The notes under the pieces were generated by a model that saw only the letters and a list, made by a program, of their open reading frames with translations, ran no database searches and had not been told where the DNA came from. Below are positions 10,510 through 13,241 of a stretch of DNA of 19,483 nucleotides, piece by piece. Source of the DNA: a bacterium (lineage in GTDB: Bacteria > SM23-31 > JAUVVT01); contig JAUWXV010000045.1 of the NCBI GenBank assembly GCA_030616165.1, forward strand, positions 1 to 19,483. Direction: 5' to 3'. Position 1 is the stretch's first letter. Each line of letters opens with the position of its first letter. The translations under genes and the position numbers were made by a program.

Positions 10510-10602
10510 TGATAAAATGTTATCAAAATATGATAAAATGTTATCAAAATGTGATAAAATATGATAAAAACATGATAAAATTTGATAAAATATTGTCAAA
10601 AA
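10510..10602. promoter_or_regulatory. phased A-tract array (probable intrinsically bent DNA) in front of lexA
   Basis: Nine A-tracts of 4-5 bases on the plus strand start at 10514, 10525, 10535, 10546, 10556, 10566, 10577, 10587 and 10598, an average of exactly 10.5 bp, the helical repeat. Most are inside repeated TGATAAAAT or TTATCAAAA units, and two units form a 21-bp direct repeat (10510 and 10531). A-tracts in phase with the helix bend DNA strongly. The array overlaps the near lexA promoter and its early transcribed region. Confidence 0.85.
10572..10599 (-). promoter_or_regulatory. proposed near promoter of lexA
   Basis: TTGACA (10599-10594), 16-base spacer, then TATCAT (10577-10572), five of six matches to the -10 consensus. 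It would start transcription near 10565, about 85 bases before lexA. No GAACN4GTTC site overlaps it; the repeated TGATAAAAT units are the only candidate operators here. Confidence 0.5.
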
Positions 10603-10696
10603 TTATCATTTTTGAGTAATATTATCATTTAAAAATGTTGCTGTTATATACTGTATTTCATAGATTTATTGGTATTTTTTTGTGCAGTTTTTTTCT

Positions 10697-10722
10697 AAAA
10701 AATCAGGATTTTTTTATCCTGA
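10697..10722 (-). terminator. intrinsic terminator between distal SOS promoter and lexA
   Basis: On the minus strand TCAGGAT, a six-base A loop and ATCCTGA form a 7-bp stem followed by TTTTTT. The left arm overlaps a competing small hairpin CTGAAAAATTCAG (10719-10731), so the two structures exclude each other, as in an attenuator. In the plus direction the stem is followed by ATTTTTC and could also work weakly. Confidence 0.7.
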
Positions 10723-10854
10723 ATTTTTCAGTTCCTTCCGAAAGTTGTCCCTGCAGGGTTGTGTAATTCAAAGTAAAACAATATATTATAAATGCATCTA
10801 TTTAGCAGAAAGATTAAAAAAACAAATTTTTTAGACTTTTTGCCACACCATCTT
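10697..10854 (-). ncRNA. candidate SOS-induced small RNA or attenuated lexA leader
   Basis: A transcript of about 158 bases is defined by a strong promoter with a LexA box on one side and an intrinsic terminator on the other. No reading frame with a ribosome site lies in it (the longest start-to-stop runs are under 20 codons). It contains the palindrome CCCTGCAGGG (10749-10758) and the alternative hairpin pair at its 3' end. I do not recognise a known RNA family. It may be a free RNA, or a leader that reads through to lexA under some condition. The existence of the RNA is inference from its signals. Confidence 0.45.
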
Positions 10855-10860
10855 ATATAT

Positions 10861-10889
10861 AATATAATGAACGAATGTTCACTTGTCAA
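10861..10889 (-). promoter_or_regulatory. SOS promoter with LexA box inside the -35/-10 spacer
   Basis: TTGACA (10889-10884), a 17-base spacer and TATATT (10866-10861) form a near-consensus sigma-70 type promoter. The spacer holds the perfect palindromic box TGAACATTCGTTCA (10868-10881), which fits the Gram-positive type LexA operator GAACN4GTTC. A repressor bound there would block RNA polymerase directly. It points towards lexA, whose start codon is about 380 bp downstream. Confidence 0.8.
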
Positions 10890-10927: not shown

Positions 10928-10940
10928 GAAATTAAAAATA

Positions 10941-11045
10941 GTAGAGACGCATTACAATGCGTCTCTACTCTGGTAAATTTCGGTAGGACAGACATTCACG
11001 TCTGTCCTTCAATTATCATAGTCAGACAGGAATGTCTGACCTACT
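10941..11045. repeat. cluster of three GTAG...CTAC-type palindromes
   Basis: Three palindromes follow each other: 10941-10968 (13-base arms GTAGAGACGCATT), 10985-11008 (9-base arms AGGACAGAC, preceded by GGT) and 11021-11040 (8-base arms GTCAGACA, followed by CTAC). All tend to begin GTAG or end CTAC. Related units are at 14330-14358, 18492-18533 and, inside the kinase gene, 18091-18117. They resemble REP-like elements moved by RAYT transposases in other bacteria; no transposase is in the window. Confidence 0.7.
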
Positions 11046-11487: not shown

Positions 11488-11697
11488 TCATTTCTTTGAC
11501 AATAATAAATCCCTTCCATATTTTTCATAACAAGATGAGCAATATTTCTTCGCATGCAAGCTATGAAGGAATTTATCTTCAATATATTCTCGATAGTAGG
11601 TCTCACCAAGTAATATTTCCTTACCACAGTTGTAGCAAATATGTTGGGTCCTAGCTTTTGTTTTTTTTAAGATTTTCATATGATTATACTTCCCCAT
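11488..11697 (-). CDS. small zinc-ribbon protein (CxxC...H..H...CxxC)
   Basis: A 69-residue basic protein with metal-site spacing C21-x2-C24, H45-x2-H48 and C53-x2-C56 (ICYNCGKEIL ... HSLHAKKYCSSC), probably binding one zinc. I do not recognise a named family. Its start is 12 bases after the endonuclease stop, with AGGA 9 bases upstream of ATG 11697; ATG 11679 with GGGGAAG upstream is an alternative, giving 63 residues. Tight coupling to the endonuclease gene inside one inserted segment suggests a partner, regulator or antidote of that enzyme, which is inference. It is the last gene before the attC-like palindrome. Confidence 0.75.
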   Translation of the reverse strand: MGKYNHMKILKKTKARTQHICYNCGKEILLGETYYREYIEDKFLHSLHAKKYCSSCYEKYGRDLLLSKK

Positions 11698-11708
11698 TGC
11701 TAAAAGTC

Positions 11709-13187
11709 CTAATTCCCTATATTCTTGTAAATCCACTCATACATTTTTTTTATTGGAACATTTAGTTTATATTCGATTGGTCTCTTTGAACCAGTCCACT
11801 TAATTAATCTTTCAATTTCTAAAATACCTAAAGTCATTCTGATTTTGTACTCTTCTGGCTTTCCCTTAAAAGGCCTGTCACGTGATAGATTTTGTCCTTC
11901 AAGCATAAATAAAATTAGGTCGGTATTGATCAGATTCTGAAGTTTGAATCCTTCAATTATTTTTTTAAAAATAGTTTGAAAGTGAATTATGGGACAATAG
12001 TGTTCATAAGGATTATCTTTTCTTGCCATGGCAACAAGGGAATGTCCTTTTATATACCATTTGAAATATTTTGAACCAAATTTCTTTTCCAGTGTGGGCT
12101 TCTCTTCAATCTCTGGAGCGAGGGTAGTTAGCATCTCTTCTTTTTCCCCAGGTCTAACAAGAAGATTAGAAATCTGTTGGAAAATATTTGCCACATCTTT
12201 TATTTTGATTGTAAAAATATACCTATTTTCAGAAATCTCTTTAACTCCATTTATAAATGGGAGCTTTAATAACTTAATAATGTATTCAATATCTTCAGGT
12301 TCTATTTCAAGTTCTTCTATCTTTTCTCTTCCTGCCAAACTATCAAAGGTAAAATAGCCCAATCTATCTTGTAAAGATAGCATTTCTTCAATAATTACTC
12401 TGAATTGTTCTAATAAATTTCTTCTGGAAAGATTTTGAGTTAGTAAATCCTCTAGTTGAGAGCTTCTGTCACCTTTACCAGCAAATAAATCTTTTAATTC
12501 TGTTAAAGTAAAAGGAAACTTAGAATGTGCCTTTACAAGTTTTATTAAATCTTCTGTTTTTAGCAGGGAAACATCATACTCGTTTGCTCGTTCCTCCAAA
12601 TTTCCTCCAGAAAAACTCGGACCTACTACAACTACAAAATCAGCTTTGTTTTTCTTTTTATGGTCTCTTAAAGAAATCCAATTTACCTGCTGATCTATAA
12701 TTTTACCTGATTTACTTGTTTTACCATCAACATTAACTTTGAATGATTCTTGACCGATATTTGCTGTAAGTAGAACATCTGTATCTCCTTTACCTCCAAT
12801 AAGTTCAACTTCAAACCCCAAAAAATTAAAAGCGTCTTTTATTGCCTCTTCAAAATCTGTTGGAGAGTAACTCTTAAACTGTCTTTCTTCTAAGTATTTT
12901 ATAATCAAATTTGATTCCAGAGGAATTTTTATTGTTTCATATTTTTCTTCATGAGTTTTTTCATCACATTCTTTCAATACAAACAACCCTTTTTTAAATT
13001 TTACAAATAAAGATTTTTTCCCTTTTTGCTTTATATCTCTATAAATTATCGAATACATTGTTGCGTCTGGAGTCTTACCATCAGTCGTAATTAACCTTTC
13101 CTTTAGTGCAATTTGGGTAATCTCTTTTGAGGAAAGTGGTATTTTCTTTTTCTTCAAGATATGATATGCTGCTTCTTTGAAATTCAT
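11709..13187 (-). CDS. HARE-HTH restriction-endonuclease-like protein with PD-(D/E)XK domain
   Basis: A 492-residue protein. Residues 1-72 (FKEAAYHILKKKKIPLSSKEI ... FVKFKKGLFVLKE) match the HARE-HTH winged helix known from restriction enzymes, RNA polymerase delta and eukaryotic ASXL proteins. Residues 108-220 look like an Mrr/PD-(D/E)XK nuclease fold: FEEAIKDAFNFLGFEVELIGGKGDTDVLL (Glu113, Asp137), then VNVDGKTSKSGK, where the usual E/Q-x-K is D154-G-K156. The last 270 residues, with WYIKGHSLVAMARKDNPYEHYCP, are unassigned. The ATG at 13187 has GGAGG 8 bases upstream; the ORF could be opened at 13202, but that would place the ribosome site inside it. No methyltransferase is nearby, so a type IV (modified-DNA) or solitary defence nuclease is more likely than a classical type II system. 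It forms a two-gene unit with the zinc-ribbon gene. Confidence 0.82.
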   Translation of the reverse strand: MNFKEAAYHILKKKKIPLSSKEITQIALKERLITTDGKTPDATMYSIIYRDIKQKGKKSLFVKFKKGLFVLKECDEKTHEEKYETIKIPLESNLIIKYLEERQFKSYSPTDFEEAIKDAFNFLGFEVELIGGKGDTDVLLTANIGQESFKVNVDGKTSKSGKIIDQQVNWISLRDHKKKNKADFVVVVGPSFSGGNLEERANEYDVSLLKTEDLIKLVKAHSKFPFTLTELKDLFAGKGDRSSQLEDLLTQNLSRRNLLEQFRVIIEEMLSLQDRLGYFTFDSLAGREKIEELEIEPEDIEYIIKLLKLPFINGVKEISENRYIFTIKIKDVANIFQQISNLLVRPGEKEEMLTTLAPEIEEKPTLEKKFGSKYFKWYIKGHSLVAMARKDNPYEHYCPIIHFQTIFKKIIEGFKLQNLINTDLILFMLEGQNLSRDRPFKGKPEEYKIRMTLGILEIERLIKWTGSKRPIEYKLNVPIKKMYEWIYKNIGN

Positions 13188-13241
13188 ACAATATACCTCC
13201 ATATCTTAATGATTAAGCCATTCGCCCACGATTTCATATAA

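Follow-up and report, generated by a model that had tools for sequence, protein, structure and literature searches.

The DNA analysed here, referred to as the window, is a stretch of 19,483 nucleotides (contig JAUWXV010000045.1, genome G000) in which lexA, a gene for a small conserved protein and dinB follow one another on the minus strand. The lexA gene is preceded by a leader of 380 nt that consists mostly of dispersed repeat DNA of two families. The nearest relative compared, G001 (JAUVVT010000075.1), belongs to a sister genus of the same family and has a LexA that is 75% identical; the comparison with close relatives is a comparison with this one genome. The features of the locus are listed below in the direction of transcription.

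10889-10861, minus strand: lexA promoter P1, TTGACA-17-TATATT, 11 of 12 consensus matches
10880-10869, minus strand: LexA operator GAACATTCGTTC (14-mer TGAACATTCGTTCA), in the P1 spacer between -35 and -10
10854-10738, minus strand: family 1, a truncated MITE-like dispersed repeat, 84% identical to its consensus over 107 nt (E 1e-26, a rough value)
10731-10719, minus strand: 'competing' hairpin CTGAA-AAA-TTCAG, -3.2 kcal/mol
10722-10703, minus strand: terminator-like hairpin TCAGGAT-AAAAAA-ATCCTGA, 7 bp, 3 of them GC
10716 to about 10490, minus strand: family 2, a dispersed AT-rich element (model match with a rough E-value of 4.5e-17)
10702-10697, minus strand: TTTTTT after the hairpin, with outer A-tract/U-tract pairing
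10627-10510, minus strand: family-2 array, TGATAA/TTATCA motifs placed ~10-11 bp apart (from sequence and motif counts)
10599-10572, minus strand: 'second promoter' TTGACA-16-TATCAT, produced incidentally by the family-2 array
10492-10488, minus strand: lexA ribosome-binding site GGAGG
10480-9869, minus strand: lexA, 203 aa (TIGR00498, 219.8 bits; Pfam LexA_DNA_bind and Peptidase_S24)
9662-9408, minus strand: conserved 84-aa protein, function unknown, of the lexA-dinB operon; shared with G001
9404-8211, minus strand: dinB, DNA polymerase IV, downstream of lexA (NF002677, 337.9 bits; Pfam IMS domains)

LexA contains both the DNA-binding and the S24 self-cleavage domain expected of the repressor of an autoregulated lexA operon, and its translation shows Ala-Gly (VAAGEP), Ser (RGDSM) and Lys (ATVKYY). 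The 84-aa protein had no Pfam or NCBIfam match. In the window, an Mrr-like restriction endonuclease gene (11709-13202; HARE-HTH and Mrr_cat domains) and a small ORF (11488-11736) are situated between a cyclase-domain gene and lexA, unlike in G001, where the cyclase gene comes directly before lexA.

Promoter and LexA operator of lexA

P1 and its operator form part of a 43-nt block that is 98% identical to the region upstream of lexA in G001, where the corresponding sequence is TTGACAAGTGAACATTTGTTCATTATATT. The same layout of -35 hexamer, operator and -10 hexamer was found before lexA in G002, G006, an LCP-89 bacterium, Zixibacteria and Melioribacteraceae, with operators that range from TGAACN4GTTCA to TGCNCN4GNNCA. 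The -35 hexamer is 53-226 nt from lexA in those relatives, and the distance is 409 nt in the window versus 292 nt in G001. Because the same block precedes lexA in the sister genus and in other relatives, P1 is taken as lexA's own promoter, and it is probably the normal autorepressed promoter of the operon of lexA, the 84-aa gene and dinB. An initial annotation, made from the window sequence alone, had described a near-consensus promoter with a perfect LexA box, and both are confirmed at the positions given above; the LexA control that it proposed for this promoter is well supported as a prediction, the box and its position being conserved across relatives.

Overlap of the operator with the lexA promoter and its retention in relatives are the features expected of a LexA-autoregulated lexA operon. 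P1 and its putative operator would be a case of classical autoregulation, with an operator of the GAACN4GTTC type that is related to the Bacillus type. Another operator of this type with an autoregulated lexA is that of the Fibrobacter type. The Bacillus-type LexA operator is CGAACN4GTTCG (PMC3091678). The locus resembles other autoregulated lexA systems in having the operator inside the lexA promoter and in its lexA-dinB operon, and is unlike the autoregulated lexA of relatives from other phyla, in which P1 is 53-168 nt off, in the length and repeat content of its leader.

Similar promoters were also encountered in front of other genes. In G006, the same promoter-operator stands right in front of a dinB-type polymerase gene (G006:C62:9383-9411, L131), which it abuts with hardly any leader. 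A LexA promoter identical to that of lexA in G001 precedes an ORF of 113 aa in G004 (G004:C138:13944-13972, L135), and this ORF is a candidate new SOS gene. Around P1 itself, a promoter-like site (11/12) on the plus strand at 10840-10868 points away from lexA, its -35 (TTGCCA) being supplied by the left end of the family-1 copy and its -10 by the AT-run of P1. More short palindromes (AGTAGAGACGCATTGTAATGCGTCTCTACT; GTCAGACATTCCTGTCTGAC) occur just upstream of P1 at 10940-11045 and look like other dispersed palindromes of this genome.

Two repeat families in the leader

The repeat nature of most of the leader was missed in the initial annotation. When the leader was searched against seven genomes, dozens of extra matches were obtained in G000 and G001. 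Family 1, represented by a covariance model, matched 60 times in G000, 23 times in G001 and nowhere in G002-G006, the copy numbers being lower bounds because the assemblies are incomplete. Full copies measure 135-157 nt, have the ends AAGATGACACGGCAAAAAGTC ... TTTTTGCCGTGTCATCTT and belong to two subfamilies; in one subfamily, uniformity is 95-99% across most copies. Pairing of the terminal inverted repeats is kept in 95% of cells. With these inverted repeats, a short length, no protein and many dispersed copies, the family is MITE-like; the flanks of 20 copies showed no obvious target-site duplication. A terminator-like palindrome of its own is present in 14 of 20 family-1 copies and has decayed in the copy of the window, which has kept the left inverted repeat AAGATGGTGTGGCAAAAAGTC and lost the right one.

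The window copy starts seven bases past the -10 box, which is the expected +1 of P1. In a gap-tolerant global alignment of the window and G001 leaders, family 1 is missing from G001 and about 26 unrelated bases are found at that place. Since the G001 leader holds family 2 and not family 1, the family-1 copy in this lexA leader would most simply be a later insertion, or else a copy that was lost in G001.

Family 2 opens with an A-tract/T-tract, continues with a conserved central part and includes an array of TGANAA/TTNTCA units; its core is at 10716-10583. A sequence model returned at least 19 matches in G000, at least 16 in G001 and none in the other genomes searched. The lexA leaders of both the window and G001 are among these matches, and hence family 2 would most simply have been in the lexA leader before the split of the two genera. 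Of the 200-nt lexA leader of G002, only a short palindrome recurs in the G002 genome, at two other sites. Many family-2 copies are located just upstream of genes and in the sense direction; several face the 3' ends of genes, so that family 2 is not simply a promoter. The spacing of about 10-11 bp between array units suggests that the array binds protein in a phased manner or has been homogenised locally. At the variable position of TGANAA (10510-10627, loci L175-L199), single copies are more uniform than the copies are among themselves, to a degree that none of 5000 shuffles reached: L182 has mostly TGACAA, L199 mostly TGAGAA and most others TGATAA.

The closest analogue of family 2 is BrickBuilt of Porphyromonas gingivalis, an intergenic minisatellite MITE with an internal array of 23-nt bricks (PMC4596501). 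Family 2 is likewise intergenic, has about 19 copies and contains an internal array of short repeats; it differs in its TGANAA/TTNTCA units of ~10-11 bp. Both families are apparently undescribed so far and come from a candidate-phylum lineage, and both have settled in the control region of the SOS repressor.

Terminator-like hairpin and predicted transcripts from P1

The hairpin and six T that had been annotated as an intrinsic terminator, 130-150 bases beyond the promoter, are present at 10722-10697. The core of the hairpin has a predicted energy of -8.0 kcal/mol, or -13.8 kcal/mol with the A-tract/U-tract pairs included, and, of 300 shuffles of the leader that preserved its dinucleotides, 1.3% contained any terminator-like site; the hairpin thus exceeds chance, and its rarity in shuffles could hint at selection for it. 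A terminator-like hairpin at this place was found in one of 21 family-2 copies, that of the window, the A-run and T-run being general in the family and the GC arms peculiar to this locus. By the same criteria, the G001 lexA leader has no terminator-like hairpin, and a comparison of G000 with G001 for compensatory change gave a weak and non-significant G001 fold (-6.5 kcal/mol, z -1.3). Termination at about 10700 is plausible from the predicted structure, and the hairpin is not conserved. The initial annotation had suggested a check of conservation in relatives and had named an unconserved terminator as evidence against its own proposal: the box and promoter are kept in relatives, and neither the terminator nor the intervening sequence occurs in the G001 leader.

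We consider it probable that the locus as a whole combines an autorepressed P1, a leader lengthened by repeats and partial termination. From the known biology of its family, LexA bound between the -35 and -10 of P1 would block RNA polymerase; on DNA damage LexA would cleave itself and P1 would fire, as known LexA biology and the conserved operator suggest. The leader would have been lengthened in this lineage by two dispersed repeat elements, with the MITE-like family-1 element placed at about +1 in this genome only and its right end lost. The transcript would then cross the MITE fragment and reach the hairpin and its U-tract, where part of it would probably stop, giving a MITE-derived RNA of about 150 nt, and read-through would give a long lexA-dinB mRNA. 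In this view the short RNA would be neither a gene nor a regulated switch; it would arise as a by-product and could at most damp lexA expression to a constant degree. An early-terminated, damage-induced leader RNA is possible as such a by-product, and we slightly doubt that useful amounts of a discrete short RNA are formed. A working leader hairpin would give the SOS feedback loop an extra constant brake that is absent in the sister genus.

A comparable arrangement is found in Coxiella burnetii, in which copies of QMITE1 located just behind promoters are the source of the sRNAs CbsR3 and CbsR13, which end within the element (PMC5896051). As in that case, a MITE lies here right behind a host promoter and the transcript is predicted to end soon after. 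The QMITE1 sRNAs have their terminator inside the MITE and their transcripts were measured, whereas here the hairpin stands just outside the MITE and is read from the sequence; the promoter here is, moreover, LexA-controlled and has lexA downstream. For prokaryotic MITEs in general, promoter and IHF-site effects have been noted and terminator effects suggested (review, PMC10969869). No description of a lexA leader with a terminator, or of a MITE in lexA, was found in the open-access papers searched.

The best surviving alternative differs from partial termination by one step: the hairpin would never terminate, the leader would be inert repeat and P1 would produce the long lexA mRNA only. The stem has just 3 GC pairs, part of the U-tract pairs with the A-tract, and other family-2 copies, which share the A-tract and T-tract, show no terminator. 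However, the stability of the core together with TTTTTT fits intrinsic terminators, and few shuffles contain such a site. We regard this variant as rather less likely than not.

The initial annotation had put forward an sRNA. Read as a dedicated SOS-induced gene that acts in trans and runs from 10854 to about 10697, with a LexA-controlled promoter and a terminator of its own, this is quite unlikely. Its promoter, box and terminator are plausibly spaced, its hairpin is unlikely by chance, and the Coxiella example indicates that MITEs behind promoters can turn into sRNAs. Against it, the promoter is lexA's in the relatives that share the layout, the terminator is unconserved, and the leader had no match in Rfam; the RNA body, which ought to be conserved in a dedicated sRNA, is a relic of a MITE-like repeat that is absent from the lexA leader of the sister genus. 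The LexA-regulated RNAs of E. coli include istR and tisB. As with these, a short RNA could come from a promoter that LexA represses; in contrast to these, there is no independent, conserved RNA gene here, and the promoter is that of lexA.

The annotated second promoter at 10599-10572 does exist as a site with 11/12 consensus matches near lexA, and might be considered the main lexA promoter, with P1 serving something else. We judge this very unlikely: the site is built of array units, is not kept in G001 and has no LexA box, and P1 is conserved as the lexA promoter. The array yields many such sites, 10 promoter-like matches having been found compared with 6.2 +/- 2.5 expected.

A regulated attenuator, in which an alternative structure would switch the leader terminator and make read-through into lexA depend on a signal, is highly improbable: a terminator-like hairpin does lie between the sole conserved promoter and lexA and the small overlapping hairpin that had been annotated as its competitor is present, but the latter is ~10 kcal/mol weaker and cannot rival the terminator, the same leader in the sister genus has no terminator, the upstream half is repeat insertion, and an attenuator would need an antiterminator or a sensor, whereas neither an antiterminator of comparable stability nor a known RNA sensor (Rfam) was found. 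With a view to a leader peptide, the short ORFs of the leader were inspected by eye, and none is clearly conserved. Sequence comparison and folding gave no evidence for either a dedicated sRNA or a regulated attenuator.

We give very little credence to a further idea, in which the lexA promoter has captured the relic of a mobile element. A MITE RNA would then be set free at every SOS induction and act as a damage-induced trans regulator, while the new terminator would damp lexA. Such an RNA could pair with many mRNAs because of its inverted ends and the dozens of intergenic copies, one of which lies 54 nt upstream of recA. More generally, mobile repeats behind a strong regulated promoter may give rise to seeming sRNA genes or attenuators when a single sequence is read.

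LexA sites and LexA homologues elsewhere

Genome-wide, 40 GAACN4GTTC sites were found versus 24 for the reversed control. The contexts of 20 others were examined; most lie within genes, and the only further plausible LexA operator is GAACAAATGTTC at L003:2005-2016 (G000:C222:12454), an intergenic site ahead of a 120-aa ORF. With recA used as a test of the regulon, no LexA-type box was found upstream of the gene in G000, nor at the recA loci of G004 and G002. The family-1 repeat upstream of recA in G000 (G000:C223, L148) is an intact copy of subfamily B and sits between a thpR-like ORF and recA.

G000 encodes a second full LexA homologue, 48% identical, at G000:C336:8694-9317 (L049). It has a different palindrome, TGTAAAGATTTACA, within a TTGACA/TATACT promoter of its own.
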